Assembly (NCBI GenBank): GCA_903875605.1
Contig: CAIQWT010000094.1
Span: 1-64,000 of the forward strand
DNA from: an uncultured Geobacteraceae bacterium
GTDB taxonomy: Bacteria > Desulfobacterota > Desulfuromonadia > Geobacterales > Pseudopelobacteraceae
DNA: 64,000 nucleotides
Direction: 5' to 3'
Part shown: one piece after another, positions 501-39,216 of the stretch
Position numbering within the stretch: position 1 is the stretch's first letter
How the letters are laid out: the number at the start of each line of letters is the position of its first letter
The notes under the pieces: model-generated
What the model was told of the DNA's origin: nothing
Seen by the model: only the letters and a program-made list of their open reading frames with translations
Database searches by the model: none
Position numbers and translations under genes: made by a program

Positions 501-524
501 GTCTGAATTCACCTATTTAAAAAG

Positions 525-965
525 CTACAGTGCTGGGTCAGGGTTAGCAATTAGTGTAGAAATTGTATGACTGAACCTGCTTCCTTTAAATCGCCAGGAA
601 ACTCTGAGTGAAACCTCTTGAGATGTTACAGTAATTACGCCAGTAATCGGATGAGTTGTTGTGCGCGACACTTGGGTTGTTCGAACCACTGAATAATTAT
701 TAAAGCCTGCTCTGGTTTTTCTATTTATATAACTAGTTGCAGGTGCAAGTGTATCAAAAGGCAGAATTTTCGCAGTTACCATTTGCTCATCTGCCAGTGA
801 TATTGCTTCATTACGCAGCAGAGTAGCAAGATTGTGTTCCGTAGCGAGGTTCACTGCCTGAAGTAGGCCAAGTAGACCGACCATCATGATCAGTACCGCT
901 ACGCAAAACTCAATCAAAGTAAAACCTGATTTACTAATTAAACTCGCATTTTGAATTTGATACAT
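525..965 (-). CDS. PilV-like type IV pilus minor pilin
   Basis: 146 residues. The leader (residues 1-14, ending KSG) precedes FTLIEF, a prepilin peptidase site with Glu at mature position 5. The transmembrane helix (about 15-38) contains VLIMMVGLLGLLQAV, the pattern characteristic of PilV. The remainder is a small globular domain containing SHRISTL-like strands near the end (SRFSHTISTL). It probably forms part of the pilus-tip initiation complex. The start overlaps the end of the upstream FimT-like gene by 32 bases, which implies translational coupling, and GGGGAAATGGA sits just upstream of the ATG. Assignment to PilV rather than another minor pilin is by motif and gene order. Confidence 0.8.
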   Translation of the reverse strand: MYQIQNASLISKSGFTLIEFCVAVLIMMVGLLGLLQAVNLATEHNLATLLRNEAISLADEQMVTAKILPFDTLAPATSYINRKTRAGFNNYSVVRTTQVSRTTTHPITGVITVTSQEVSLRVSWRFKGSRFSHTISTLIANPDPAL

Positions 966-1527
966 TCCATTTCCCCATATTTACACGAGCTACTGAAATA
1001 ACCAGGCAATTAATGCCTGATGATACATCTATAGGGTTTACAACTATTGTAAAACCGAAGGTTGATGTTGAAGGTGATGTAGAGTTAAAACCGGTTGTAT
1101 CAAATAAGATTGCCGAATTATCATCAGTAAATGCCGTTGTAGTATTAGTTTTTGTTATGCCATATTTCAAAGACTTGGTCATAATATTGGTGCCATTCGT
1201 TTTTGCATCTGCAGAATATTTATATTCAACTTCCGAGCTATATGATTTCATTACATAGCTATTAGGCTGAAAAACAATCCCATGCACTTTCTTTTGTGTG
1301 AACGCCATATTTCTAGCATCCATTAGGTCTGCATACATTTCACGCACCTGAGACTCAAACCTGCTTTTTTTCTGCCAAGTAGTGAACGACAGTGTGGCTG
1401 TCCCCACAACTACCGCCATAATTGCAATGGTGATCATCAATTCAATCAAAGTGAACCCTGCTTGGTGCAAATGCCCCCTATTTCGACCTAAAGAGCGGGT
1501 ACATCGTAATTCAGTAGTGAAATTCAT
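934..1527 (-). CDS. FimT/GspH-like pseudopilin
   Basis: 197 residues from the ATG at 1527, which has GGAG 6 bases upstream; another in-frame ATG at 1551 is less well placed. The 24-residue leader is long for a prepilin and ends QAG before FTLIELM. The hydrophobic helix contains TIAIMAVVVGTATL, and the following segment (FESQVREMYADLMDARNMAF) is the usual GspH/FimT region, where a helix leads into a beta-rich domain. Expected role: minor pilin at the tip of the type IV pilus or in a related secretion pseudopilus. It lies 25 bases after the pilY1-like stop and overlaps the next prepilin gene. Confidence 0.85.
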   Translation of the reverse strand: MNFTTELRCTRSLGRNRGHLHQAGFTLIELMITIAIMAVVVGTATLSFTTWQKKSRFESQVREMYADLMDARNMAFTQKKVHGIVFQPNSYVMKSYSSEVEYKYSADAKTNGTNIMTKSLKYGITKTNTTTAFTDDNSAILFDTTGFNSTSPSTSTFGFTIVVNPIDVSSGINCLVISVARVNMGKWNVSNSKCEFN

Positions 1528-1552
1528 TTTATCTCCACGAAGAATTATCATC

Positions 1553-4500
1553 CTATTTTTCCTGGATATGCAGAATTTTTTTCAGTGGTTTGTTATTGGT
1601 ATTGCTAATTACTGGCGGAGGATCTGTTGGTGGCTTGCCAATCATAGGAGTGTCCATCTTTCTGCCGCCACTGGCGTTAAGAGCCTTGCTCAGAGTAACC
1701 TCTTCAAAAGCTCCAGTTGAGACCTGTACAAGAACTTTTCCTGTCAAAGCGGCAGATGGAGCAGCTCCACCGGTTGCATAATTGAATCCCCAAACATACG
1801 AATAGCCACCAAACTTGCACACATCTGTAGTCGGCTTGAAGGTTGTAAAAAATACCGCTCCATTTGATTGTGCAACAGGATCGGTAATTGAGCGCTCCGC
1901 ACCAAGACTGTTAGCCACAATTTTACTGTCAAGTGCGACATACCAGCCTTTTTCGCTAGAACTAAGTGCAGTTGGATCAATAGTAGTCTGATTTCGTAGA
2001 TTGCTAATCGTCATTTGATTAGCTGTACATGCAGGATCTATTTTATTGCTGTCGGTATAACATGGTTCCTGAACCCCCACCAGATAACGTTGATTGTAAG
2101 TATCAGTCGAAGAATCATCACCTGTGTAGTAGAATCTTCCGGTGCCAAAATAGAGCCACAGCTTTCTATTATTTCGATCCTGTAATCTAGAAATAGCTGT
2201 CGTGACCGGACCAATTCCGTCAATTACCTTACTAAATATCCATTGTGAAGGGTCGGTACTTTCTTTAGTTAACAGTCGCCCTACCCCGCCATCTGTCCAG
2301 GAAACTTCGCCTGAACTCTCAGTCCTTTTTTTTGTGTAACCGACATACACGGCATCATCCTGATAATTACCATCTAATGCACTGCTCCACCTGTCTGTAT
2401 CAATAGCTCCACCAATCACACTTCCACCAAAAGCTTCTGGGATGCCTGTGTCTATTACCCAGTAATTTGTATTTAAGACAAAGGGACTAGTTGCCGTTAC
2501 AGTTGCCCCAAGGTCAACAACAAACAACTTCAGATTCTGGTCAGATCTCCCCATAAAGCGATGTACTGATGAATCAATCGGCCCTGTAGGTCCCGAAGCA
2601 AAAACAGCAAACCATTTGCCGTTTACCTTAGTATTCGGTTTAATTATTCCATCAACCGCAGCTAGTTTAGGAGATATACGGACAATAGCTGCACCAGAAG
2701 TTGCGTATCCGAGACCAAAATTATCTGGAGCATCACGCGGAGGAAACTCCCACTTTAATATAGGTTGCCCTGCAATGGTTTCAACATTTCCAGCAGTATT
2801 AAAATATTGGTTTGATATATCCATTGCAAAATATGATGAATAGCCGACCCCTTTAGTTTTGGGTACTCCGGAATCATCTGGATCTAGTATAGGGGTTTTA
2901 ACACACCTGCCATCAGCAGCATTAGAACAAACCGCGTTTGTCGATAGTCGAGATGCCCCGCCCAACCCCATACTGCCAATAAGTACTGTTGTCCAGTTTG
3001 TACCGCCATCCTCATCTTTCAGACAGAGTGAATAGTCATCGCAAGTTCCTACTTTTACAGTGGAAATATCTGTCAAAATAGTAGGGCCATCCAGATAATT
3101 GATATGCTTGTAATTCACAGCATCCGTATAATATTTAAGATATGGTAGATTACTTCGGGGAATATAGGCCCACTGTTCCTCACCCAGATTTGTTCCTGTA
3201 AGTGATGCCTTGACAAAACCTCCAATTTTTACAGTGCTGCTTCCAGAGGCGATACCGGTATCAGCCCCGGACGCAACAGTCAGTTTACCCAATTTAAAAG
3301 CATGCAGCATTCCGTCATTTGCCCCAACATAAACCATTCCTCTTTTTAAATAATTCGCTGATTTGATATATTTGTCATAACTTTTATCGTTGTAACCAGC
3401 AGGCGCTATCAAGTTATAAGCGTTAAGCTTGTTGGTAGACTGGAGTTTTGGCGTAGAAGACACTATATCACCCAATTTCCATTCATTAGTTACGGTAGAA
3501 CCACTAACCGATAGCGAGACTCTACGGTTACGATAGCCAGTCTGGTCTGTGCCTCTAATGTAATCAATGATCTTGATAGCCTCGACATTGCTGTCAGTTG
3601 CAGAGGCTTGTAGATAGGGTCGTAAGTTCGTTACTCTGTCATTGGCTGTATAAAAGCCACCGTATATTTCCGTCGGTGGATAAACCCCACTTGCATCTGA
3701 GTGAAGTAAGGAATAGCCGTCAACACTTGTATGAATTTTTCTTGTATTTGCTGCTCTAGCCCATAACTGCCGGCCTGCACGCCAAAGGCTTTTCACACTG
3801 TCAGGACTCAGTGCAACATTTACAGGCGGTTCATTGCCTAGTCCGTCACCGTCAGTATCCTGTTTCAATTCAACCTTCGTACTTGAATCCGCATTATCAA
3901 AATAAAAACGGGCTACATAATCATTTTTAAGGTTCAAAATATGGTTCGGTGTAGTTGTTGCGAAATCGGTGTCCTCTCGAACCGTACTATTTGAAACAAA
4001 TGGATCTACGTAATACCAAAGATTCTGCATTTCTCCTGTCCAACTTACTTCAGATGTTGAGTCAGTTGCTGGATTTGGTGCCGGAAAGATTTTGTTAGGG
4101 AAGAAAACTGCCTGAAGCAGGTTAGCTCCGCTACCTTCACTATTACTCAAAATCGATGCTGCAGTACCAGAGGCAACTTTTGCCAAAATCGAAGACATTG
4201 CCGTATTAAGACTATTTTGAAGTACCGTGCCATCATCAGCCTCAAAATAATTATACGGGACGCAGGTACCAGCTTTATTCCATTCCGGTGATCCGGTGAC
4301 TGGATTATCCGGAGTTTTTGGCTGTGCATAAGTAGCCGTATTTCCGGAATTTGCAGCGTTACCGTCATTATTTTCAAAACCACCGTATTTTGCCGCCATC
4401 ATAAGTGTTTTTTTGCCAGGTCCATTTCCGTTGGAATCGAGTTTTCCGAAGGTATACACGGGGAAAAGGGTAATATTTTGCATTACCGTTTCAGTGCTGT

Positions 4501-7500
4501 CTACGGCATTTCCGTAGACACTCGAACGCAAATCTGTGTTGTGCATGTAATAAGCGACGGCCTCTACCTTATCGGAATTGGTGTTAGAATTAAAAGTCGC
4601 TGCACTACAAGTAGTATTCGCATTGTCTGCACGGTCATCTGCTAAAATCTTATTTTCCCAGGTTGTTGCATTAAAAATACTATCCGTGTAGCTGTTTGCA
4701 GTGCCAGGAAGTTTATCCGTACTGTTTGGCTCACCATCGGTCAATAGCAATATAAAATGTTTCTGACAGCTATTCTGCACCGGATCCATGGTGCCGTAAT
4801 CTACGCCCGTGTTGTAAGCGCTGGGTTTTGCCTGAAAATAACGAATAGCTTCATAAAGTGTTTCAGAAATCGGGGTACTAGTTTTAGGGTCAGTCTCAGT
4901 ACTTTCAATAGCAGCTATCAAACCAGCTTCTGTAGATCCGAGTACAGCTTTTCCAGTTGGATCAGCTGTCGTAACAGGAATAACGGCAAGGTGTCCGCCG
5001 TCATTTGAAGCATTAAAGACCATTACTCCGAAGCGAACTTTTCCAGAAAGGTTTTGTATCAGCCCGGTTGGCAACGTCGTGCCATATTCAATCGTCTTGC
5101 CATTATCTGTTGCAAGATAGTATGGAGATGAGGAACGATTAACTATTTTACCACCCATCAATACTTTTCTGACAACGTCAACCTTATGCATATGTAGCCA
5201 ATTGAGTTTATTCCCGGATAAATTGCTCGAGAGATCCAGATTGATAGCATCAATCAAGTATTTATTTGCATCCGAACCAGAGCTACCAGCGGTTTTGTAC
5301 ATCTTATTTGGCTCGAAATAACCATAAAATGTTGAGCATGAACAAGCTGTTGATGATGTACAGGTTGATGATGATGTACAGTTATAAGTTTTTCCAGTTA
5401 TACCATTATATGTGTAACCATCGGTATCGTTCCCCCCCATACTGGCCGAGTTATCAAAAACAATAAGCACATTTGGAGCAAGACTTGCCTGGCCGGCAAC
5501 AAATGCCGGGATCTGACAGTACGAATCAGAAGATGTCGGAGAAATTGCCGAATACTGCACTGTAATAGCGCCATCGGCTTGAACATCTGTGAATGTATAC
5601 GTGGCGGAAGCAAGCGGTGCTATGTCCAAATTAGTATAATTTCTGTTTGTATCAGTTACCCAAACATGGGTTACTGAACATGTTGAGGTCGGATTAAAGG
5701 TAAGAGTTTTACTGGAACCACGTGGCACATTGATAGTTGTGGGATTTCCCGACATATCAGAAATAGTACCACAGCCAGACGGATTGGACGCATGGTTGGT
5801 CAGAACAATATTGAAACCTATCGGCCTGAATTTAACAACAAAAGTGCTGTTTGCTGTGATTGCTGGTGTCGTATAGGTATAACCGGTGCCGACCCATGCC
5901 TGTGCAACACCGGTATTAAACTTTACACTTTCAATCATGCAATTAGTAGACGTTCCGAATACAAAAGAGTCTGTTTGCCCATCGTTAATAAGTCGGCTTG
6001 AAGGAGTAATGGTATTCGAGGTACAAAGAGCATCAGTTGTCGGATCAACCGTACCAGTAACTGTATGACTTGTAGCTGCGGTAGATGTAAAGACAACCCA
6101 CACTTTATAGGAATGTCCTCCAGACACAGGAAACGTAAAAGTCATGTTAGTAATTTGATTCGCCGGAACAGCGACAGAGTTAGTCGGGTTTGTGTCGCCA
6201 TAGTAGATGTAGGATATCTTGAAGTTAGTTGCAGGGCGTACTTCAATGGTAACCGTAGCATTGCTGGTAAGTATCGTATCATCAGCAATCGTATTTCTAA
6301 GCTGCTCCGAACTGCCGGGGCTTGTTTTGTATACTGTTCCACCACTACCATTGGCACCGGGTGGTGCAGCCGTGGATGCGTTATAATCTAGAGTATTGTT
6401 AGTTCCATACCAAGCACCGATCTGTCCACCAACGGCACCAACAGGGGTAAACTGGACAAAAATTATATAGTTTTTGGGGGCAGTCGCAGAGGGGACGGTA
6501 ATGTCTCCATTACTATCAGCACTTACCGAATGACATGTACCAGAAGTCACCGTAACTGTTTGCGGAACCGTCCAAGAGGCTTCACAATATTGCACAGCAG
6601 TAATAGTATGTGCCGGAGAAGTAGAAGCGGTTATTTGGACAATTTTATCGCCATCCGAAGTATAACCAACCGTCGTGTAAGAACCGGTCCCTATAGCACT
6701 GTAGGTGTAGTTGCTTGCTTTCCAACCACCGGTTCTGAGGGAGACAGAACCGCCAGTCCAGCCAGGTGTGGTTGCGGCAGTAATGTCTATGGGACCGGTT
6801 CCGTAGTACGCAAGGAACCTGTCATGTGCCGCATTGGGATCGAGCTTGAACACAACTTGGAAGGAACTAGTGTTTCCAACCAGCGTGAATGATACCACTC
6901 CATTAGCATCCGGAAACAAAACAATATTATTACTGGTAAAACCATTATCATCATTGTCTTTCCACTGAACATTATCAATAACATATCCTGTATCCGGCGT
7001 AATGGTAAATGTAGCTGTCGCTGTTTGAGCATAACTAGGACTGACAAATTGCGAGTTCTGTACCGTTTTACTAGTTGCTTCAACAAGACCGCCATTCCCA
7101 GTCCATGAGGGATTGCCGTTATTGATATCAGTGTCACGCCGCCATCTTGTAAAAATATTGACCGTAGGGACAGGCGCAAAAATGACCTGAAGTGAGCATT
7201 CTCGGTTGGTCATCTGAAACGACACCTGGTTGTTGGTAACTGTCAAGGTATTTATGTTGGAATCGCCGCTACTAAAACCATTTGAATCGTTATCACGCCA
7301 TTCTGCAGATGAAACCATATATCCATCAGCCGGAGTCAGGATAAAAACCGGTGTGGCCGTTCCACCGTACGACGTATTTCCACCATTAGTTACAGTATAT
7401 CCAGTGGATGTTACGCTACCAACGGCGGGGTTATTACTCCAACTGCTGGATGTGCCCCACCTGACAAAAACATTATGGGCAGTTACCTGAGTGAATGTAA

Positions 7501-26796: not shown

Positions 26797-28758
26797 TTAG
26801 TATTTCGCATCTATCTTCCGGCTCAACACCCTGCATAAGTCAACCGGATTATAAGGCTTGTGCAAAAAGCTGGCATTGGAATCTACCTCCGTAATTTCCA
26901 GCACTGATTCTGCTCCGTAACCGCTACAGATAATAATAGGCACTGAAGCATTCATCTTACGCAGCTCATAATAAGCTTCAACGCCCCCCATCTCCGGCAT
27001 TACCAGGTCGAGCATAATCAGATCAATCTCTTCACTATGTGTTTTGTATAGTTCCAGAGCTTCGCGCCCGTTAGCGGCCGTAAGCGCATCAAAACCAAGC
27101 GTTTCCAGCAACGCCTTTTCCATGATGCGCAGTGTTTCTTCATCATCAACCAATAGAATCGTGAATCTTTTTAGTGGCGCAGGCATTTTTACAAAAGCGG
27201 GGTCTAACGCAACTTCAAGATTCTTATGAGATGCAATCAGAGGGAAGTAAATTTTAAACGTTGTTCCGACACAAGGTGAACTGGTCAACTGAATCGTACC
27301 ATTATGAGACTTTACGATACCAAGTATAGCAGACATACCCAACCCTCGACCGGCAAATTTGGTCGTATAGAAAGGCTCAAACACCCTCATTTTACCTTCA
27401 TCACTCATACCGCAACCTGTATCGGCAACTTCCAGGCAGACATAATTCCCCGGAAATATAGCACAGCCAAAGTAATCAGCTTCAGGCTGATCGCACTGTA
27501 CTTGACATTTTTTCAGCCCGACACTGATGGTACCGTAGCCATCTCCAATAGCTTCACTGGCATTGATAATCAGATTCATAATGACCTGCTGAATCTGACT
27601 GCCATCACCAACTATCATCGGGATATCATCCTTCATATCAAGCGCTATAGTCACATTCTTTTTAATAGCGGAAGAAAGCATCTTGACAATATCATCAACC
27701 AGCATCAACAGACTGAACTCCGCCTGAAGCAGAGGACTTTTACCAGCGTAGGCAAGCATCTGACGACAGAGATCGGCAGCCCGATTTGCAGCGGTCTCAA
27801 TCATCAGGATGTGTTTATCCCGATTAGCACCGGTAACTACATTTTCCTTCATAATAAAACAGTGGCCCAGGATAATAGTTAAAATATTATTAAAATCATG
27901 AGCAATGCCGCCAGTCAATACCCCTAGACTCTCTATCTTTTGCGCGTGCTGAACCTGTTTTTCCAAGCTTTGGCGCTCCGCCTCAATTTTTACATGTTCA
28001 GTGACGTCGCGCATAACATGAACACAGCCTGATATATTTCCTTCATCAAAGAGAGGTGACACCGTAATATCAAAAACTCCGTTAAGTCTTTTTTCTTCAA
28101 TTCGAACATGATGTACTTTACCGCACTGGACCAGATCTGTGCCTGGACAGCAGGACGGCGGTGTTTTCAGACCATGTACCACCTCATGGCATCTTCGCCC
28201 TACAAGAGCTTCCGGAATTAAATCAAAACGATCCGCCATGGCTTTATTGACTCGAATTATTGTGTGATTCGTGTCGACAATGGCAATCAGGTCTGGAACA
28301 GCATCGAACGTTCGCTCCCAATCGTTTTTTGACCTGAGAGCAGCAATATCTGTTTGTCGGCGCGCCATCATCAATGCCCAGGCCATCAACGCGTACATTA
28401 CGGTACGGGGCAGCTTTTCAAAGGCCTCCGGCGACTTTACAATGTAATCCAGGGCACCGGTTTTCATAGTATCAACAGCAACCTGCTCATTGCCTTGAGA
28501 CGTCATCATGATAATCGGCCAGGAACCTACAGCCATGGCGACCAGTTCGCTGCCATGCCCATCAGGCAGATGGTAGTCGGTAAGAACCAGACTTGGCGTG
28601 CTGCGCTCCACAACCAAAATGGCATCACTGACACTACCGGCAATCTCGATTCGATACTCTTCCGGAGCAAGTTCAAATGATCGCCTGATTAATTCCAAGT
28701 GATTTATATCGTCTTCAACGACAAGTATCAGTGGTGCAGTAGGATTGTCCGTCAGCAT
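26797..28758 (-). CDS. Cytoplasmic hybrid kinase REC-PAS-HisKA-HATPase-REC
   Basis: 653 residues with no membrane segment. Receiver 1 (about 10-125) has phospho-Asp in LTDYHLPDG. A PAS domain (about 145-265) includes RRCHEVVHGLKTPPSCCPGTD, whose cysteines might bind a cofactor. The HisKA domain has GGIAHDFNNILTI, followed by an ATPase domain (NLIINASEA, DTGCGM, GRGLGMSAI) and receiver 2 (about 535-650, MLDLVMPEMGG). It probably passes phosphate between its own receivers and other proteins. Receiver 1 and the kinase core closely resemble the gene at 30823-32025, so the two are paralogs flanking the SBP-kinase. Confidence 0.9.
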   Translation of the reverse strand: MLTDNPTAPLILVVEDDINHLELIRRSFELAPEEYRIEIAGSVSDAILVVERSTPSLVLTDYHLPDGHGSELVAMAVGSWPIIMMTSQGNEQVAVDTMKTGALDYIVKSPEAFEKLPRTVMYALMAWALMMARRQTDIAALRSKNDWERTFDAVPDLIAIVDTNHTIIRVNKAMADRFDLIPEALVGRRCHEVVHGLKTPPSCCPGTDLVQCGKVHHVRIEEKRLNGVFDITVSPLFDEGNISGCVHVMRDVTEHVKIEAERQSLEKQVQHAQKIESLGVLTGGIAHDFNNILTIILGHCFIMKENVVTGANRDKHILMIETAANRAADLCRQMLAYAGKSPLLQAEFSLLMLVDDIVKMLSSAIKKNVTIALDMKDDIPMIVGDGSQIQQVIMNLIINASEAIGDGYGTISVGLKKCQVQCDQPEADYFGCAIFPGNYVCLEVADTGCGMSDEGKMRVFEPFYTTKFAGRGLGMSAILGIVKSHNGTIQLTSSPCVGTTFKIYFPLIASHKNLEVALDPAFVKMPAPLKRFTILLVDDEETLRIMEKALLETLGFDALTAANGREALELYKTHSEEIDLIMLDLVMPEMGGVEAYYELRKMNASVPIIICSGYGAESVLEITEVDSNASFLHKPYNPVDLCRVLSRKIDAKY

Positions 28759-28822
28759 TCAAGAGTCCTTTTGATTCAGTGAGTTTCAAACTCTAAGATC
28801 AATAACCTTCATAAAGATACCC

Positions 28823-28840
28823 AACATTCATCTGAATGTT
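28823..28840. repeat. Perfect inverted repeat upstream of the hybrid kinase gene
   Basis: AACATTCA-TC-TGAATGTT, two 8-bp arms, lies about 65 bases before the start of the hybrid kinase gene. A related half (TGAATGTCATTC) occurs near 32067-32078 upstream of the paralogous REC-kinase. It could be a shared operator; weak evidence. Confidence 0.4.
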
Positions 28841-28861
28841 ATTGTTCTTTGCACCTTCTTT

Positions 28862-30826
28862 TTACTCGCTTTTATCTGAAACATAATCTGGCAGCACAAA
28901 GCAGAACCGACTCCCCTTCCCCGCACCATCCGACTCAACCCACACCCGGCCTCCATGTGCTTCAATGGCCCGTTTGACCAGGGCAAGCCCTATTCCAGTC
29001 CCCTCGCTTTTGCTGTCCAACTGACTAAACAGATCGAAGATTTTTTCGTGAAAACGCTCCTCAATGCCTTTGCCGTTATCATAGACAAAGAAAACATTTT
29101 CTTTGCCTTCATTCCTTACACCTATCTCAATGCGTGGCTCAGCCTGGCCCCCCATATATTTAATGGCATTTTCAAGCAGGTTCTGCATGACTTCAAGTAT
29201 TCTTTTCCTGTCACCACGCACAGTAGGAAGATTCGACTGTAACGTAATCTTAACTTGGCTCTCCGTGACTGTTCCGGCCAACTGCTCCAGTGTATCCATT
29301 ATCAGGTGGTTCATATCCACTTGCGAAGGCATATCCATAACCTTACCAACGCGGGACAGCTCCAACAAATCATTGAGCAGAGTGGTCATCTTTAAAGCCG
29401 AGTCCTCAATTCTTTTGAGGTCGTCCTGAGCACTGGCATGTTGCCCTGCTTCCATATTCTTCTTTATCATGCCGGCATAGCTTTGGATAGTTATCAGAGG
29501 GCTCTTCAGATCATGCGAGACTGTGTAAGTAAAACTTTCCAACTCCGTGTTTTTATCATGAAGTGTTTTCTCGGTACGCTTGCGTTCACTGATATCTTTG
29601 ACAAAACAGAGGAAACGCGTTTCAGACAATTTTACTGCATCCAATGACCACCAGCGTTTTTCGCCGATTTTGTGTAAACACTCAAGCTCACCATAAGCAA
29701 ATCCATTCATTTTTAATGAGTTGAAATGATTGAGCGCCGTATCAAAAGATTCCGGCGGAACCAGATCTGGAATAGCCATCGTCAGCAACTCCACCTCCGT
29801 ATATCCTGTGATAGTGGACGCGGCACAATTGACCTCAAGATAACTACCATTTTCATCAGCAACAAAGACACCATCCGGTGAATTGTCAATATAACTGCGG
29901 AATTTTGCTTCGCTTTCCCGCAGCACGGCCTTACTCTGAATAATATCTGCAGTTGACCTCTGCACCTGCCTTCTCATCAGCACAACAAAAACAATGGCAA
30001 CAACAACCAGAACACCAAGTGCTGCGATAACTTTAACCAACCACCGAGGAACAGCCTGTTTAAAAACATTACTTTCGTGCGACCACTTCTGACGTGCAAT
30101 GTTAAATGGCGAGTCAGGTTGATGCTTCCAGTTGGCCAGATAGCTGTCCAAAAGTGTCAACAGGTTCTGATTTTTGTTCTTGGCAACAGCAAAAAAAATA
30201 TCAAACGGATTGAAAACAATGCCGGTGGAACGGAGACCAAATTTTTTCTGCTTGGCGACACCAAAGTTACTGCTTACGACCCCGGCATCAACTTTTTTTG
30301 AAGCTACCGCCTTGAAAACATCATCAAAACCAGGCATCTCAACAAATTCGCAAATAATATCGAACTTTTTTACAAGATTTATGAAGTGGCTGGCATTGAA
30401 ATCACCCTTCATCACAGCTATTTTTTTATTTTTGACTTCACGAATACCATCGATTTCTGAATCTAAAGGCACATAGAGTTCACCCCACACCGTCAAGAGC
30501 GGCGTTGTCGCGTAATCCAAAAACTGCGCTCGTTCGGTTGTGAATGCGACACTGGTAAGCACATCCACTTCACCTGATTTTATTTTTTCAAGCCCATCAC
30601 TCCATGAACCGAATATGTATTCAAAGCGTATATTTTCCCGCCGTGCTATCGCGGCCAATGCATCAACATAAAAACCCTTTACAGCACCGTCGGTGTCTTT
30701 GAAAATCGCTGGATAATAATTGAAAGCACCAACACGAACGACCTGAGGCCCAGCAGCATATAATGTGCTGAAAGATGAGAAAAAAAGTAGAATGAAGATA
30801 AGATTAGCTGAAATGTGTTTTTTCAC
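28862..30826 (-). CDS. Histidine kinase with periplasmic solute-binding (SBP_bac_3) sensor
   Basis: 654 residues. A signal peptide or signal anchor (1-24) is followed by a family 3 solute-binding domain (about 27-255: VRVGAFNYYPAIFKDTDGAVKGFYVDALAAIA). One TM helix (about 270-292) leads to a PAS domain (about 305-420), then HisKA with SHDLKSPL and an ATPase domain (NLLENAIKY, DNGKGIE, GTGIGLALVK). The family senses small molecules such as amino acids through the periplasmic domain; the ligand is unknown. Its stop lies 103 bases before the next gene, and its start overlaps the upstream REC-kinase by 4 bases. Confidence 0.92.
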   Translation of the reverse strand: MKKHISANLIFILLFFSSFSTLYAAGPQVVRVGAFNYYPAIFKDTDGAVKGFYVDALAAIARRENIRFEYIFGSWSDGLEKIKSGEVDVLTSVAFTTERAQFLDYATTPLLTVWGELYVPLDSEIDGIREVKNKKIAVMKGDFNASHFINLVKKFDIICEFVEMPGFDDVFKAVASKKVDAGVVSSNFGVAKQKKFGLRSTGIVFNPFDIFFAVAKNKNQNLLTLLDSYLANWKHQPDSPFNIARQKWSHESNVFKQAVPRWLVKVIAALGVLVVVAIVFVVLMRRQVQRSTADIIQSKAVLRESEAKFRSYIDNSPDGVFVADENGSYLEVNCAASTITGYTEVELLTMAIPDLVPPESFDTALNHFNSLKMNGFAYGELECLHKIGEKRWWSLDAVKLSETRFLCFVKDISERKRTEKTLHDKNTELESFTYTVSHDLKSPLITIQSYAGMIKKNMEAGQHASAQDDLKRIEDSALKMTTLLNDLLELSRVGKVMDMPSQVDMNHLIMDTLEQLAGTVTESQVKITLQSNLPTVRGDRKRILEVMQNLLENAIKYMGGQAEPRIEIGVRNEGKENVFFVYDNGKGIEERFHEKIFDLFSQLDSKSEGTGIGLALVKRAIEAHGGRVWVESDGAGKGSRFCFVLPDYVSDKSE

Positions 30827-32025
30827 TCTTTCTCCACATCAGAAATCACTCTATAATTTGGCATATTAATAATCGGAAACAGTAACCGGATGGTTGTTCC
30901 TCTGCCGGGACTGCTATCAACCATAATTGCCCCTTTGTGGGAGCGGATCAATCCATGTACCGCAGACATTCCCAGACCACGGCCGGTAAATTTTGTGGTA
31001 AAGAAAGGATCGAACATCTTATTCCGTGTCTCTACATCCATACCGCAACCGCTATCACTTACTTCTAACCAGACATAACGGCCAGCAGCAAGCTTCTCCT
31101 CCAACCGACTATTATTCAAACTTTTTTTGTCAAAATCCTGAACGCCGGTCGATAAATCAATTGAGCCGTTGGCTGTAGTGATAGACTCGGATGAATTGAT
31201 AAGCAGAGCCATAATTACCTGCTGAATCTGGTCAGCATCGGCAAGAATTAACGGCAGCCCACGGTTGAGGTTTAAGTTAAAAAGAATGTTTTGTGAAATA
31301 ACCGCTGCCGAAATATTGGCGTTTTTTTCAATCAGATCTGTGAGATTCAGCTCTCCGTTATTTAAAAACCCCCTGCCTGAGTAGGCCAGCATCATTTTAC
31401 TCAGCCTGGCGGCACGTTCAGCCGCATTGAACGCCTGACAAATAAAATTACGGGCCGGTGCGTCTTCCGGCAGCTTCGACAATGACAGCTCAAGATTACC
31501 AAGCACAGCCTGCAGTAGATTGTTGAAGTCGTGGGCGATTCCGCCCGACATTGTTCCCAGACTCTCCAGCTTTTGAACATGGAGAAGGTGGCGCTCAATT
31601 CTATGAAACTCTTCTTTCGCCCGTTTTTGATCCTGAATAAGTGCCCATTCACGCAGGCCTCGCTGCACTATCCGCGAAATACCGGCAAAAACCGCTGATG
31701 TTTTAACTACGTAGTCCTGTGCTCCTGCTTTCATGGCATTTACCGCTACTTGTTCGTTTCCCTGTGATGTTAGTAATATCACCGGGCAAAGTCCGTTAAC
31801 AGTGCTGACAAGTTCACTCCCCATCCCATCAGGAAGACGATAATCGGTCAGGATAATATCAGGAGGATGCTGCTCGATGGTTACCCGTGCATCATGCAAA
31901 CTGGCTGCAATTTTCAGGCAATATTCTTCCGCAGCGCCATGAAGAGACGTTTTCATTAATTCTGCGTGGTCGTAGTCGTCTTCAACAATTATTATTAAAG
32001 GTACGTTTCTGTTATCAGTCAGCAT
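30823..32025 (-). CDS. Receiver-histidine kinase (REC-HisKA-HATPase)
   Basis: 400 residues, soluble. The N-terminal receiver has phospho-Asp in LTDYRLPDG. No PAS domain is present; the HisKA box is GGIAHDFNNLLQ, followed by NSSESI, DSGCGM and GRGLGMSAV. The first 110 residues align well by eye with the hybrid kinase at 26797-28758 (both begin MLTDN and share LPDG.GSELV), so one arose by duplication. It probably couples the receiver state to the kinase and passes phosphate to a partner, perhaps a CheY-like protein of the cluster. It overlaps the SBP-kinase gene by 4 bases. Confidence 0.9.
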   Translation of the reverse strand: MLTDNRNVPLIIIVEDDYDHAELMKTSLHGAAEEYCLKIAASLHDARVTIEQHPPDIILTDYRLPDGMGSELVSTVNGLCPVILLTSQGNEQVAVNAMKAGAQDYVVKTSAVFAGISRIVQRGLREWALIQDQKRAKEEFHRIERHLLHVQKLESLGTMSGGIAHDFNNLLQAVLGNLELSLSKLPEDAPARNFICQAFNAAERAARLSKMMLAYSGRGFLNNGELNLTDLIEKNANISAAVISQNILFNLNLNRGLPLILADADQIQQVIMALLINSSESITTANGSIDLSTGVQDFDKKSLNNSRLEEKLAAGRYVWLEVSDSGCGMDVETRNKMFDPFFTTKFTGRGLGMSAVHGLIRSHKGAIMVDSSPGRGTTIRLLFPIINMPNYRVISDVEKE

Positions 32026-32085
32026 GACAGATCCCTCAATATTTTTTTCATTATTACTGCCGAAGTGAATGTCATTCGGATGATG

Positions 32086-35000
32086 TCAGATGGTAAAAGT
32101 TTTTTTGACTGTTTCTACTGTCAGCAATGCCAGCTGTTCTAATTCGGGCAGCAGGCACCTTACAGATCCAAGCGATCCATCTTTTGCAGCGGTTTCGATA
32201 CACCCGGCACTATCACGCAGTGCGACTGCACTTATATTCGCCGCCACGCCTTTCAGTGTATGGGCCAGTCGCCTTATTACCAGCAGATCATCACCATTAC
32301 TAATTTTTTTCAACTCCTCCAGTAGTTCCGGGATTTCCAGAAGCGCTTCGTCCAGAATACTTTTTACAAAATCAAGATCTTCGAGACGCTGCATTACATC
32401 AGCCTCATCAAAGACCAACCGGGCAGAGTCAAGCGACTTATCACCGGTGGATTGCGATACTAACGTACCTTCTACTCTGTTTTTCACCAGCCAAGTAGTA
32501 AGGATCTGAGCCAATTCATCCTTATATACCGGCTTGGCAAGATAATCATTCATACCGGATTCGATGCACTTTTCTCGATCACCACTCATAGCATTGGCTG
32601 TCATGGCAATAATCGGCACAGCATGGTTAAGCACTTTTGAGTGATTTCCCCGAATCTGAGCAGTAGCCTCATAGCCACTCATTTCTGGCATATGGCAATC
32701 CATAAGCACCAGGTCATAGTTAATCAACTCAAGCGCTTTAACAGCTTCGATTCCGTTGACAACGACATCGGCTTTATAACCGAGGCTATTCAACATAATC
32801 TGTGCTACTTTTTGATTGATAACATTGTCCTCCGCCAGGAGAATCCGCGATTTTTTTATAGCAGACTCTTCAACGGAGTTTAGTTTTTCAATATCAGCAG
32901 ATTTAACAGCAGCAGCAGCTGAATCATAATTTGAATCTGCAACCCCCAGCAGCTGCTCTAGGCACCGAAACAACAGCAATTGTTTCAGGGGCTTGGAGAT
33001 ACTTTCGGCAAAACCGCTCTGTTTCAATGCGGTTGCGTCCGGGCGCTTACCAAGCGCAGCGACCATAACCAGAATCATCGATTGCAACGCAGAATCACCC
33101 TTGATGCGTGATCCTAGCTCGAAACCATCAATGCCGGGCATCTGCTGAGCGATCAGTGCAATTCGAAAGGGGTCTCCAAGTTCCACAGCTTCATGCAAAA
33201 TGTCCAAAGCGGTGTCGCCATCTTTGGCGGTGTCGTACTGATAACCACGACTGTTTAACAGCGTAATAGTATGCATTCTGTTGGCATCACTGCTGTCTAC
33301 CACCAAAACCCGTACTGTCGCCATGTCAGAAGGCATCAAAGGAGGTGTGGCAGGAGCGGTGGAAGCCTCCAAGGCAGTTGAAATCACTGGGGCCTGCTTT
33401 TCAAATTGAGCCGTGAACCAGAACCTGGCGCCGCTTCCGTACCGGCTCTCTACCCCGATTGTGCCACCCATCAACTCAGCAAGTTGTTTACAAATAGCCA
33501 GGCCAAGGCCAGTACCCCCGTATTTACGGGAGGTGGAGCCTTCTGCCTGAGTGAACGGATCAAATAACACTGACAGCCTCGCTTCTGGAATACCAATGCC
33601 GGTATCGCTGACCGAAAAACGCACCATCAGAGGATCCTCTGATTCGACGTCCGCACTGATAACAACCTCTCCGGCATGGGTAAATTTAAGAGCGTTACCA
33701 ACCAGATTAGTAATAATCTGTCGCAAGCGACCTGGATCACCCCTCAGCAATATAGGTACATCGTGGGCTATACGGCAGATTAGATCGAGTCCGGAATCTG
33801 CGGCCTGTAACGCCAGTAATTCGGCTGTATCATCTAATGTTGCAAGCAGATCAAAAGGAATGATCTCCAGCTCCAGTTTGTGAGCTTCCATTTTAGAAAA
33901 GTCCAGAATATCGTTTATCAATCCCAATAAATTATCGCCACTTTTTTTGAGTAGCTTCGTGTACTTGCGTTGTTCCTCAGTCAATTCGGTATCCAACAGA
34001 ATTCCGGTAATGCCGATTACGCCATTCATAGGTGTTCGAATTTCGTGACTCATAATTGCCAGAAACTCACTTCTTGAGCGAGTAGCCTCCTCAGCGACAA
34101 TCAGCGCACACCCCAACTCGGATGTTTTCTGTTCCATAAGAGCTGAAAAATCAAGCAACTTCATTTCACGTCGCTGAATTTCATCGAGCAGCATATTGAA
34201 AGAAATTGCCAGCTGACCTATTTCATCGTCGTTATCAAAAACAATCTGCCTCTGTTTATTATCTCCGTATTGCGTCAGAGCAACGACCTGTCTGGAAAAA
34301 TCTTCCAAAGGCGCCGTGATGCCGGCACCTAGTTTCCATGCAAGTGTAACACAGATAAAGAGGACAAAAATCACACCTGAAATTGAAGCGTTTCGAAAGA
34401 GTGTTATTGATTGATATGCTTCCTCCAGTGGTAAATTACCCGATAATATCCAGCCAGTATATTCAAGCCGCTTGAAAGAGGCTAACAAGTGTAGCCCCTT
34501 TGAATTTATTGTTTCACCGGATCCTTCAAAGCCATCCAGAGCCCTGTCAAAAAGCGGGTTTTCCCCCTTTACAACATCTTTTTTCATGATTCTGCTACTG
34601 TCTGAGGACATAATTATGGTGCCGTCGGGTCCAAACAGATACATGAAACCTGAAGTTCCAATTCGAGTGTTGCCAACATCCCGAAAAATTCCATCTTGCC
34701 TCAGAAGGTCAATAGCCCCGCACAAAACTGCCCTGATCCTGCCACTATGGTCACGGATCGGAGCTGTCAGCATTACAATGGGGTGCTGATTGACTGATGA
34801 CAAAAAAGGCGAGGCTATGTACGGTTTATTCAGGATTATGGTCTGGGTGAAGTATTCTCTATGTGCATAGGAAGATCCGTACAGTCGTTCCGCTTTTGGA
34901 GAGACTACAAGCATTATTCCGTCAGCATCAAGTGCAAAGAGTCCATGATCAAAAACGGTTCTGAGAGCAGCCTTATCGTCTAACCACTCCTGCAAGAACT

Positions 35001-35250
35001 TCCTGTCATCAAGAATACCAATCGGAGCCGCATCTGCAACGGCAACCAGTGAGTTCTGTGAGGTGTTTATTACATTATCAAGCCCTTTGGCAACGGCTGA
35101 AACCATAGAATACTGCTGATTAAATATCATTTCCTTGGACGAATGGCGAAAATAAACATAGACACCGACTGCAATTGAGACAAGCAACGCCGTAACAGAC
35201 AAGCTGATTGTAGAAATCAGCTTATGCTTGATGCTGGTGAATTTCACCAT
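32086..35250 (-). CDS. Membrane hybrid histidine kinase (dCache-HAMP-HK-REC-REC-HPt)
   Basis: 1054 residues. TM1 (about 13-33), a large periplasmic Cache-type sensor (about 40-280), TM2 (about 287-307), HAMP, HisKA with [14 protein letters not shown] (His near 403), an ATPase domain ([23 protein letters not shown]), two receivers and a C-terminal HPt ([12 protein letters not shown], His near 993). Receiver 2 (about 808-930) is canonical ([13 protein letters not shown]). Receiver 1 (about 650-770) has Ala at the phospho-Asp position ([12 protein letters not shown]). The chain has all steps of a His-Asp-His phosphorelay. It ends the CheD-linked part of the cluster, 3 bases after the CheD gene start side. 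Confidence 0.93.
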
Positions 35251-35253
35251 TGC

Positions 35254-35739
35254 CTAACCATTCGATGTCGCTTTTTTTCCCTTGCCAACAAGAACAACTC
35301 CTGTTCCGCTATTCATAATGATTTTTCTGCCGACGCCACCACCTACATCTTTGGCAATAACAGGGATACGAAACTCTTCAAGCATTTGCAGAGCGAGCGT
35401 TATATTGCGGTCACCAATCATAAATACTTCAAGACCGGTGCCCGTAACATTAGCTCCGCCAAAAATCTTGGCGACAAGAAATTCGCGCCGGCAGCCGATT
35501 GAGATAACCTTGGCAAACAGTTTTTCCATGGCAATATTGCCATACTTTGGCGTTGCCAAACCTTCACCGTTCCAAAGGGGGAGCATCATGTGATTCATCC
35601 CCCCCCTGCGGGTTACGTGGTCCCAAAGGCAAACGGACACACATGAACCAAGAACGGTACTTATCTGATATTCCGTCGGTTCGGCAAAGATTGTGCCTGG
35701 AAAGAGAAAATGTTTATTGAGCGGTTCTTCACAGCCCAT
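35254..35739 (-). CDS. cheD: CheD, chemoreceptor glutamine deamidase (copy 1)
   Basis: 161 residues. The motif [14 protein letters not shown] contains the catalytic Cys, and RRGGMNHMMLP supplies the catalytic His; a KIFGGANVTG block and DVGGGVGRKI complete the family pattern. CheD deamidates or docks on MCPs and can interact with CheC-type phosphatases. A second CheD lies 3 kb upstream. It sits between a kinase-like gene with no phospho-His (5 bases) and the large hybrid kinase (3 bases), so it is translated in one tight unit with them. Confidence 0.93.
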   Translation of the reverse strand: MGCEEPLNKHFLFPGTIFAEPTEYQISTVLGSCVSVCLWDHVTRRGGMNHMMLPLWNGEGLATPKYGNIAMEKLFAKVISIGCRREFLVAKIFGGANVTGTGLEVFMIGDRNITLALQMLEEFRIPVIAKDVGGGVGRKIIMNSGTGVVLVGKGKKATSNG

Positions 35740-35744
35740 ACGGA

Positions 35745-36635
35745 TTATGCCTCGCTCATATCATCGAAGAGAAACAGATTGCCGGCCTCAGAAAAGGAAT
35801 CTTCATCGTCTAATCGCGTGCATGGAGGGATCGTCACCGTAAACAGTGTTCCTTCGCCCGGTGAACTGACAAGACTAATACCGCCCTGCATTAGTTCAAC
35901 AAGCGCCTTTGTTATACTAAGCCCAAGACCATGCCCAGGATGGGAGCGGGTTGTCCCTGTATCCAACTGCACAAAACGGTCAAAGACGCGCTGCTGGTCT
36001 TCCAGTGCTATCCCAACGCCGTGATCCTGAACAGCGATACTCAAATCTCCGTTTTCAACAGCAGAGAACATCACCTCGACAGAGGTATTTTTTTCACTAA
36101 ATTCAATCGCGTTGGCTAACAGATTGGAGACTACTATCTGGAGCTTTTCAACATCCACAACAACTATTCGCTCTTCATCACCAGGTATAAAAGACAAATT
36201 AAGTGACACATTTTTTTTTGCAGCGCTATGCAGGAAGGATTCAACCAGATCTCTTAAAATCAGTGCAATATGAACCTTCATACAGCGGGGACTGACCTCC
36301 CCGGCTTCCAGTTCTGCGGCGATAAATATATTTCGCAACTGAAAATCAAGATGATTGGCTTCCGAACCTATCAAAGAGGACAGAGTAGCAATCTCTTCAT
36401 TGCCGACTCCGACAATGGCAAGCTGGCCTGCAAGTCCCATGATGGCGTTAAGTGGATTATTAATTTCGTTGCGGATATTAGACAGGAAATTACTTTTGAG
36501 AGATTCCGAACGCTCAAGCCGTTCGTTCATATCAATCAATTTACGGTTAACAACGCTCAAATCAGAAAAAGCCTTACGGCTTTGGGCAAAACGATTTGAA
36601 AGTTCCGCGATTAAAGCATCGTCAGTCACATTCAT
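35745..36635 (-). CDS. Soluble histidine-kinase homolog lacking the phospho-His (NEINNP box)
   Basis: 296 residues, no TM. A short coiled coil (about 1-45) leads to a HisKA-like box FLSNIRNEINNPLNAIMG in which the expected His of HE(I)..P is Asn (codon at 36468-36470). The ATPase domain is intact by motif: NLLANAIEF, DHGVGI, FDRF and GHGLGLSI. It therefore may bind ATP but cannot autophosphorylate at the usual place. It could be a regulatory pseudokinase, pair with another kinase subunit, or phosphorylate in trans. It lies between CheV and CheD in the operon. Confidence 0.88.
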   Translation of the reverse strand: MNVTDDALIAELSNRFAQSRKAFSDLSVVNRKLIDMNERLERSESLKSNFLSNIRNEINNPLNAIMGLAGQLAIVGVGNEEIATLSSLIGSEANHLDFQLRNIFIAAELEAGEVSPRCMKVHIALILRDLVESFLHSAAKKNVSLNLSFIPGDEERIVVVDVEKLQIVVSNLLANAIEFSEKNTSVEVMFSAVENGDLSIAVQDHGVGIALEDQQRVFDRFVQLDTGTTRSHPGHGLGLSITKALVELMQGGISLVSSPGEGTLFTVTIPPCTRLDDEDSFSEAGNLFLFDDMSEA

Positions 36636-36668: not shown

Positions 36669-37568
36669 TCAGCTCTCAACGAGACTGAATATTTCTTTTG
36701 AAAGGGAATCGGGATCGAACTTGGCAACGAACTTGTCGGCTCCGGCCTGTTCGGCTTTAAGTTGATTGGACGGGTTGCTCATTGAGCTGTGCAGAATTAC
36801 TTTGAGATGTTTGAAACGGCTCTGCTCCCGCATTGTACGGGTGAAAGTAAAGCCATCCATACCTGGCATTTCAATATCGGAGATAACCAGGTCCACCGAG
36901 GCATGTTCCTTGTCAAGATATTCCAGTGCCTTGTCTGCCGACATCAGTGCCGTATTAGTGAAACCCATTTTATCAAGCACTGATTGCAGCAGCATTATCG
37001 CTGTACGCGAATCATCAACGACAAGCACATGCCTACCACTTCCTTTCCCTGCAACATCGTTCATAGCAACCGTTGAAAGGTCACGATCTATTCCGACAAC
37101 GGCAGCCAGTATTGACTCAATATCCAGAAGCATAATAGCTTCACCACTATCCGCATAAGCGATTGCAACCAGAGACAGGGCATTAACACCCTCAGGCTTG
37201 TGAATATCGGCCCAGCTACGCGTCAGAAGAGTGTCCGGCGCATGAACTATAAAAGCCGTAAGGCTGCGGTTGTACTCACAGATGATAACGTAGGCAAGGT
37301 CAGTGCGAAATTCTTTAGCAGCCAGGCCAACAGCCTCGGACAGGTCAATAACGGCCAAAGCACTGCCGCGAAAATCGAGGACACCTTTCACTGCCGGATG
37401 AGAGTTGGGTACCCGGTCAATCCTGCGTGGACATTCAATGATTTCTATAATTTTGAACACGTTGATGCCGTAGAGCTGATTATCCGTCAATCGGAACGTC
37501 AACATCTCCATCTGGTTCGACTGGGACAGGTTAGAGCGCTGCAGTGCTTCGTCAAGAGATGATGCCAT
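36669..37568 (-). CDS. cheV: CheV-type coupling protein (CheW-REC)
   Basis: 299 residues. The CheW-like domain (about 20-155: FRLTDNQLYGINVFKIIEII, VPNSHPAVKGVLDFRGSALAVIDL) is fused to a receiver (about 170-295) with phospho-Asp in VISDIEMPGMDG. CheV links receptors to CheA and is tuned by phosphorylation, an alternative route to adaptation. The order cheB-cheV with 71 bases between them places it in the main operon. Confidence 0.94.
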   Translation of the reverse strand: MASSLDEALQRSNLSQSNQMEMLTFRLTDNQLYGINVFKIIEIIECPRRIDRVPNSHPAVKGVLDFRGSALAVIDLSEAVGLAAKEFRTDLAYVIICEYNRSLTAFIVHAPDTLLTRSWADIHKPEGVNALSLVAIAYADSGEAIMLLDIESILAAVVGIDRDLSTVAMNDVAGKGSGRHVLVVDDSRTAIMLLQSVLDKMGFTNTALMSADKALEYLDKEHASVDLVISDIEMPGMDGFTFTRTMREQSRFKHLKVILHSSMSNPSNQLKAEQAGADKFVAKFDPDSLSKEIFSLVES

Positions 37569-37639: not shown

Positions 37640-38710
37640 TTAACTGCAAAGTCTCAATACTTCATGGGCGATATTCTGCAGCGGCATTATTTTGTTGACG
37701 CCTCCGAGTTTTACCGCTTCGTGCGGCATACCGTAAACCACGCAACTGGCTTCGTCCTGGGCAATAGTAATTGCTCCGGCGTCGTGCATTTCTTTCATAC
37801 CATGAGCGCCGTCATCACCCATACCGGTCATGATTACGCCAACGGCATTTTTGCCTGCATAACGCGCTGCCGAGCGGAACAGCACATCCACCGACGGACG
37901 GTGCCTGGAAACAAGCGGACCATCCTTGATTTCAACATAATAGCGGGCACCGCTCCGTTTCAGCAACACATGATGGTTTCCAGGGGCGATCAAAGCCCTG
38001 CCACGCACCACGGTATCATTATCCTGAGCTTCCTTGACCGTCACACGGCAGATGGAATCGAGACGTTTGGCAAAAGCGGCGGTAAAATTTTCCGGCATAT
38101 GCTGAACAATAACAATGCCTGGGGTATCTTCCGGAAGCATCTCCAGAAAAATCCTGAGAGCCTCGGTGCCACCGGTTGAAGCCCCCACGACGACCACCTT
38201 CTCTGTGGTCTGGATCATCGCCTTCATATTTGGCTTTTCCATGATAACATCAGCCGTATATTTGGGAGAAACCTCCTTCATGGTACGCATCGCTTTCATC
38301 GGTCCGAGCCTGGCGGCAGCAGCACCTCTGACAGCATCACAGATACGCACTCTGGACTCTTCGATAAACTGCTTAGTCCCCATTTTGGGTTTGGTGATGA
38401 TATCGACAGCACCGTATTCCAGAGCTTTCAGTGCCGTTTCATTGCCGCGCTCGGTGAGACTCGAACACATAACCACAGGGATAGGATGCTGACTCATCAG
38501 TTTCTGAAGAAAAGTAAGTCCATCCATACGCGGCATTTCAACATCCAGCGTTATAACATCGGGAATAACGGTTTTCATACGCTCTGCAGCCAGAATCGGG
38601 TCAGCAGCACTGCCAACCACTTCAATGTCAGGGTCAGAACTGAGGATATCGCATAAAGTCTGACGTACCAGAGCCGAGTCATCTATTATTAATACTTTGA
38701 TTTTTTTCAT
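37640..38710 (-). CDS. cheB: Chemotaxis methylesterase/deamidase CheB
   Basis: 356 residues. The N-terminal receiver (about 1-120) has DDSALVRQ and phospho-Asp in [11 protein letters not shown]. The methylesterase domain (about 165-350) carries Ser in [11 protein letters not shown], His in [12 protein letters not shown], and Asp in MTGMGDDGA. It removes methyl groups from MCP glutamates when phosphorylated by CheA. It overlaps the second cheD by 4 bases (ATGA). The counterpart methyltransferase CheR is two genes upstream. Confidence 0.97.
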
Positions 38711-39216
38711 GTATTATTATCCCCAGGATCCTGTTTGTTATGGCGCATCCGGCGCATATACACATCCCCGCTGCGGGTACAAAAAAACAGCTTGCGTCCC
38801 TGCTGACCTCCAGTATCACGAACTGAAATGGATAGCCCCAGTGATGCCAGCACGGCTTCCGCCTGTGCTATGTTCTGATCACCTACGGTATTTCTTTCAG
38901 GCAATCGATCTCCCACATTAAGCACCTGTGCGCCGCCGAACAGCTTGATTTCAAGATCACTTCCGATGCCAAATGCCACAAGCTTGTTATAGATATGCTG
39001 CAATGCCGTATCAACATAACGAAGATCATTTTCTCGCCCCAAATTTTCTGGCAGCATAGCGTGACAAATGGCACCAAAACCACGCGAAGCCGAAAACATT
39101 GTTACCGCAACACACGACCCGAGAACGGTCGAAACCAGCACCGGCGTCCGTGAAATAATCACTTCACCTGGCTTGAGATAAATATTATGTGTATGTGACG
39201 CGATAAGATTTTTCAT
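38707..39216 (-). CDS. cheD: CheD, chemoreceptor glutamine deamidase (copy 2)
   Basis: 169 residues from the ATG at 39216. The catalytic Cys sits in [13 protein letters not shown] and the His in [21 protein letters not shown] and [12 protein letters not shown] follow. An upstream TTG/ATG pair (39312-39307) is in frame and would extend it into cheR, but the CheD-typical part starts near LKPGEVIIS. No strong ribosome site precedes 39216, so the start is uncertain. It shares only the core motifs with CheD copy 1, so it is not a recent duplicate. Confidence 0.9.

Follow-up and report, generated by a model that had tools for sequence, protein, structure and literature searches.

CheD is a widespread protein whose known regulator is CheC, and most work on CheC concerns Bacillus and Thermotoga. 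At high CheY~P in B. subtilis, CheC draws CheD off the receptors, and the binding of CheC to CheD outweighs the catalysis of either enzyme in importance (PMC3513319). Pseudo-histidine kinases are also known. The His-less, kinase-dead core of DivL from Caulobacter (PDB 4q20) senses a phosphorylated single-domain regulator, reading DivK~P without acting on it (PMC4211667). For CrdS, the acceptor His and the Glu that follows it are required for kinase activity with little or no requirement for phosphatase activity, the H371A mutant loses the former and keeps the latter, and the Asn four positions after the His (N375) is required for phosphatase activity only (PMC3510030). RdmS, which with MsmS represents the H-box-less Methanosarcina kinases, binds and hydrolyses ATP and is not an autokinase (PMC11784639).

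Here we describe a protein encoded in the window (the whole stretch of 64,000 nucleotides that was analysed) as the founding type of a family of histidine-kinase cores, predicted to be kinase-dead, that occurs in a module of two genes, the other encoding a dedicated CheD. Like DivL, the family has a predicted kinase-dead DHp-CA core in which the acceptor His is replaced family-wide. However, DivL has Tyr at the acceptor position, carries PAS sensor domains, binds ATP weakly (57 uM) and partners with the hybrid kinase CckA, whereas the family has Asn, invariant ATP motifs, no sensor domain and cheD as its partner gene. The proposed role resembles that of CheC in the CheC-CheD-CheY~P loop of B. 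subtilis and T. maritima, as a dedicated CheD partner tied to receiver phosphorylation (PMC3513319), but the fold of CheC is unrelated to the HATPase_c core of the pseudokinase, and CheC/CheX genes can coexist with it in family genomes. With CrdS H371A/E372A and NtrB the family shares a lost acceptor His and a retained H+4 Asn, a combination expected to be kinase-minus and phosphatase-plus (PMC3510030); those proteins are either bifunctional kinases or products of laboratory mutagenesis, whereas here the state is natural and fixed in a whole family. The domain fold is that of HK853 of T. maritima and of the PhoR/PnpS-type HisKA kinases, which give the best PDB and NCBIfam sequence matches, although His260 of HK853 is Asn in the pseudokinase, the membrane and sensor parts are absent, and the window protein falls far below every NCBIfam cut-off. 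RdmS and MsmS lack the H-box altogether, in contrast to the near-invariant 12-residue H-box of this family. Thus pseudo-histidine kinases, CheD and CheC were each known already, while no name was found for an Asn-type family obligatorily partnered with a CheD clade of its own; the pair is undescribed in the family libraries and literature searched (subscription journals were outside the scope), and the pseudokinase family lacks a model in both Pfam and NCBIfam. The features of the locus, in window positions, are:

35745 to 36635, minus strand: Asn-type pseudo-histidine kinase, 296 aa (open reading frame, Pfam, family alignment, AF2 models)
36453 to 36488, minus strand: H-box FLSNIRNEINNP, residues 50-61, a near-invariant 12-residue signature in 108 homologs
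36468 to 36470, minus strand: codon AAC of Asn56, the phospho-histidine position (by alignment to HK853 His260; Asn in 108/108)
36456 to 36458, minus strand: codon of Asn60, equivalent of CrdS N375 and HK853 T264 (Asn in 103/108, Ser in 3, Asp in 2)
36111 to 36125, minus strand: N-box with N171 and N175 (108/108)
36012 to 36026, minus strand: G1 box D204xG206xG208 (108/108)
35973 to 35984, minus strand: F-box region with F218, R220 and F221 (R220 and F221 in 108/108)
35919 to 35936, minus strand: G2 box GHGLGL with G234, G236, G238 and L239 (Gly/Leu positions in 108/108)
35766 to 35783, minus strand: family-specific C-terminal tail motif GNxFxF, residues 285-290 (about 93% conserved, outside the HATPase_c match)
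36669 to 37568, minus strand: CheV, a CheW plus receiver domain protein and possible phospho-receiver partner (Pfam, neighbourhoods)
35254 to 35739, minus strand: paired cheD (CheD2), 161 aa (PF03975, 87 bits; next gene in 108/108 family loci)
35641 to 35643, minus strand: catalytic Cys33 of CheD2 (aligned to T. maritima CheD, 2f9z_C; 108/108)
35590 to 35592, minus strand: catalytic His50 of CheD2 (aligned to 2f9z_C; 108/108)
about 38707 to 39216: CheD1, beside cheB/cheR

The pseudokinase reading frame is real, with an ATG start and a ribosome-binding-like GGGAG upstream. The gene follows cheV by 33 nt and its stop codon precedes the start of cheD by 5 nt, so the initial annotation correctly described a tight placement between the two; the CheD side has proved the important one. 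CheV lies upstream in the window only and is not a conserved neighbour family-wide. From the N-terminus, the protein comprises a helix, the DHp (a HisKA-like hairpin), the CA domain (HATPase_c) and a short conserved tail. Pfam detects HATPase_c (PF02518) at 100.8 bits against a cut-off of 26.4 and HisKA (PF00512) at 26.3 bits, slightly below its cut-off of 26.9. The same scan of the window protein gave no sensor domain, PAS match or Pfam membrane domain, and no CheC/CheX match (PF04509/PF13690). The protein is a cytoplasmic DHp-CA histidine-kinase core. PADLOC matches reflect the shared HATPase fold only, and a defence-system role was rejected. Directly downstream of cheD2, on the same strand, four large hybrid or sensor histidine kinases occupy positions 26797-35250 and are possibly co-transcribed with the che genes.

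With the single protein as query, 24 other genomes among the 58 searched proved to have clear full-length relatives, and a second, pattern-based search, run on genome contigs, returned 80 loci. Because one of its patterns was the H-box NIRNEINN, which could favour Asn, a whole-length profile (49 rows) was built and the search repeated with the motif not used, across about 976 genomes from four bacterial groups: 345 from the window's phylum, 296 Nitrospirota, 295 from one Bacteroidota class and 40 from the phylum of the Calditrichota locus. These yielded 12, 25, 4 and 1 members, respectively (42 in total). In the window's phylum, members scored 311-410 bits and the next protein 203 bits; this runner-up (L133) is a hybrid kinase that has the His, FLSNMSHELRTP. 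The pseudokinases thus form a sharp, profile-defined family with a wide score gap. Cultured carriers of the gene include Trichlorobacter thiogenes ATCC BAA-34 and Oryzomonas japonica. Plasmid homologs reached at best 39% identity and are apparently ordinary kinases.

The initial annotation had read an Asn in place of the phospho-His in a motif NEINNP, beside intact N-box, G1, F and G2 motifs. Both readings are exact: in the alignment to HK853, Asn56 falls on His260, E57 on E261 and N60 on T264. It had also proposed that homologs be collected, and rather than mostly His these have Asn at the site without exception, in all 42 members from the unbiased search and in 108/108 nonredundant family sequences. 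Among the latter, Glu57 is present in 106 and Arg55 in 97. The residues shared by all 108 are, besides Asn56 and those of the N-box, G1, R220-F221 and G2 positions listed above, D161. By comparison, of 16 background histidine kinase ORFs in the same loci, 12 are readable at the site and all 12 have His. Motif-search bias as the source of the Asn is ruled out by the profile search, which includes divergent H-boxes that all retain Asn and a neighbouring cheD: RNQVNSP (L134/L135), RNEMGSP (L136), RNELVDP (L137), MNEIINP (L138) and SNEIINP (L140). A phospho-acceptor at another nearby His is unlikely, since the 108-sequence alignment has no conserved His in the DHp alpha-1 helix, and the frequent H232 (90/108) and H235 (99/108), neither of them invariant, both belong to the ATP-lid/G2 region. 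The acceptor His, to judge from the alignment, is permanently lost family-wide and fixed as Asn, with the ATP site kept; the joint invariance of Asn56 and the nucleotide-binding boxes indicates that selection has favoured losing the acceptor while keeping nucleotide binding. ATP binding without autophosphorylation, as initially suggested, would be the natural reading of such a pattern.

Two cases in the family are unusual in other respects. One Nitrospirota genome (G574) has two copies of the pair (L136 and L137), both with divergent H-boxes, which hints that the pair was duplicated and that the constraint on Asn60 has eased. The Bacteroidota member L139 (G927:C70:67383-68246) has one in-frame TGA, possibly a pseudogene, an assembly error or recoding.

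The downstream neighbour of the gene is invariant. In 42/42 members from the unbiased search and at all 108 nonredundant loci, the pseudokinase gene is followed directly by a cheD of the same orientation. The pair lies within che operons in Bacteroidota, KSB1, Calditrichota and deltaproteobacteria, in the order cheW-mcp-cheR-X-cheD-cheB-cheY-cheC-like in Bacteroidota and mcp-cheW/cheV-cheR-X-cheD-cheB at many deltaproteobacterial loci (X being the pseudokinase); in several Geobacter relatives it has no che gene nearby. At eight tested Nitrospirota loci dnaA and dnaN lie directly upstream of the pair (assigned by Pfam for L071, positions 509-6801, and by homology for L141, L145, L146, L148 and L151-L153), with gyrB downstream in 7/8 and not found in L148. 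Because the remaining neighbourhood varies in this way, the pseudokinase gene and cheD travel and are maintained together whatever the operon. The vicinity of replication-initiation genes is, in its own right, an odd place for chemotaxis genes. Chemosensory operons are likewise unusual in Bacteroidota, where we observed MCP, CheR, the pair, CheB and CheY together at L087:5936-6589, L094:5864-6487 and L100:5955-6581, the first with an additional, Pfam-supported CheC-like protein.

Among the 296 Nitrospirota genomes, CheD occurs in 131 and the pseudokinase family in only 24, never without CheD, and the paired CheD is the sole CheD in 11/17 family genomes checked. The partnership of pseudokinase and CheD is thus strongly supported by linkage, and the two proteins may bind each other physically. 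The suggestion in the initial annotation that the protein regulates the receptor array gains strong support from the invariant neighbouring cheD, insofar as it links the protein to the receptor-adaptation machinery. A CheC search found none in 21/43 family genomes; since the same search missed the Pfam-detected CheC of L087 (G401), we do not claim absence of CheC, and hence replacement of CheC, from this figure.

The paired CheDs also stand apart from other CheDs. When CheDs from the same loci, 106 paired and 26 unpaired, are placed in one tree, the paired sequences occupy one side of a single branch (support 96/99, length 2.09), with the root and the long branch to be read with caution for the two most divergent unpaired rows. 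A private WNGEG loop (core WNG) directly follows His50 in 103/106 paired and 0/26 unpaired CheDs. The Cys-His-Ser/Thr triad is intact, with Ser or Thr at residue 27 in most paired CheDs. A separate clade with a private loop points to a shared physical specialization rather than mere co-regulation. In the window itself, a single che cluster contains two cheD paralogs that belong to different clades and are separated by 3 kb (CheD1 and CheD2), and the window's genome contains no further CheD.

At 19 loci the two genes share a reading frame and only one stop codon separates them, so that a read-through pseudokinase-CheD chain could be predicted. The AF2 model (mean pLDDT 86.4, pTM 0.61) has both domains well resolved, with a linker pLDDT below 50 and the relative position of CheD not defined. 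Its fold matches are HK853 and DivL, with DivL (4q20) at the top. The DHp-CA portion lies within 2.6-3.4 angstrom rmsd of the HK853-RR468 complexes and DivL, versus about 6 for ATP-bound, active WalK; this likeness to receiver-bound HK853 is confined to the model with CheD attached, the arrangement being less well defined for the kinase part alone, and gives weak support to the explanation that we favour below. Attaching CheD raised the pLDDT of the N-terminal ten residues from 75 to 90 and that of the ATP lid from 45 to 70, a rise in model confidence that is suggestive only. Among 107 pairs joined end to end (about 82 effective sequences at 80% identity), covariation was noise, the top pairs being hubs of variable columns.

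Taken from conservation and linkage, the protein is very probably an ATP-binding, non-autophosphorylating functional partner of CheD, and the two probably constitute one adaptation module. As to how it might work, we hold with evenly divided confidence that it controls CheD as a response-regulator sensor and/or phosphatase, binding ATP but lacking kinase activity. By analogy, its role would be like that of CheC in Bacillus subtilis and its mechanism like that of DivL or of His-to-Asn NtrB/CrdS. The dimeric DHp-CA core would bind ATP without autophosphorylating, because Asn56 replaces the acceptor His. Much as DivL docks DivK~P, the DHp may dock a phosphorylated chemotaxis receiver (of the CheY, CheB or CheV type); Asn60 would then probably accelerate the dephosphorylation of that receiver, as in the kinase-dead His mutants of CrdS. 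The resulting ATP- and regulator-dependent state would set the share of the paired CheD held by the pseudokinase versus the receptors, feeding output phosphorylation back onto receptor adaptation in a CheC-like manner. As the His-to-Asn change blocks phosphate flow back or in, the pseudokinase would be a reader, not a writer, of the signal. Some observations count against this explanation: E57 is kept in 106/108 sequences though dispensable for phosphatase activity in CrdS, and a receiver partner gene is not constant in the pseudokinase neighbourhoods. Moreover, 5/108 sequences have Ser or Asp in place of Asn60, so some members may lack phosphatase activity, and CheX/CheC-like phosphatases are encoded elsewhere in the window's genome, which is therefore not missing a CheY~P phosphatase.

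Other readings account for part of the evidence. It is possible, if rather unlikely, that no response regulator is involved and that the protein is an ATP-dependent holder of CheD, its DHp four-helix bundle mimicking the chemoreceptor bundle, its ATP state serving as the switch, and Asn56-Glu57 acting as a pseudo-substrate placed where a receptor would present Gln/Glu. The surroundings of Asn56 do not match the CheD target consensus, [AS]xx[QE][QE]xx[AS], such a model has no need of the phosphatase residue Asn60 present in 103/108, and the AF2 interface is undefined. Nevertheless, it would explain the dedicated CheD at 108/108 loci and the fact that Asn56 is constrained more than E57 or N60, which is hard to attribute to mere loss of His; it also agrees with the gains in AF2 confidence of the N-terminal helix and ATP lid with CheD attached, and with the facts that CheD acts on helical bundles and that the site by which CheC engages CheD is receptor-like (PMC3513319). 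We consider it unlikely that the family adds to CheC another class of CheD controller, non-homologous to it, in the form of an ATP-gated pseudokinase with the DHp as receptor decoy and Asn56 as inert pseudo-substrate, in which ATP and/or receiver phosphorylation would set the amount of free CheD.

Distinctly unlikely is a monofunctional response-regulator phosphatase, that is, a natural kinase-minus/phosphatase-plus HisKA protein draining CheY~P, CheV~P or CheB~P with the cheD linkage reflecting co-regulation only. The window protein has the H+4 Asn or Thr expected of such an enzyme, as N60 (Asn in 103/108), and CrdS H371A and E372 mutants behave in just this way (PMC3510030), but the absolute linkage is to cheD rather than to cheY/cheV, the distinct clade of the paired CheD argues for physical co-adaptation, and PleC H610A, as cited in PMC3510030, loses phosphatase activity, so that a His-less form is not always active. 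The initial annotation had also proposed action on a partner's His. In such a reading, an ATP-competent subunit would phosphorylate a heterodimeric kinase partner or an Hpt such as CheA P1. The intact ATP motifs would permit this, and His-less NtrB subunits can phosphorylate their partner subunit; however, the gene has no linked kinase partner in any of the phyla compared, and a private H-box signature would be unnecessary, so the proposal is not supported and we judge it very improbable. The lost His and a HisKA score just under the Pfam cut-off could also suggest a decayed, functionless kinase or a local mutation, to which we assign a negligible probability given that Asn is present in 108/108 and all ATP motifs are invariant in several phyla; the same conservation of Asn rules out sequencing error.

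The pair offers a natural experiment in what the histidine-kinase fold is kept for after the His is lost. Since conservation of the ATP site is perfect although autokinase function is predicted to be lost, nucleotide binding itself or a receiver phosphatase activity must be under selection. The pair consists of two small soluble proteins and is open to testing. As a module co-inherited in Geobacterales, Nitrospirota, Bacteroidota and other groups, it is a concrete candidate for control of CheD beyond CheC. If the pseudokinase did prove to be an ATP-gated decoy for CheD, it would represent a previously unknown wiring of cellular energy into chemotactic adaptation.
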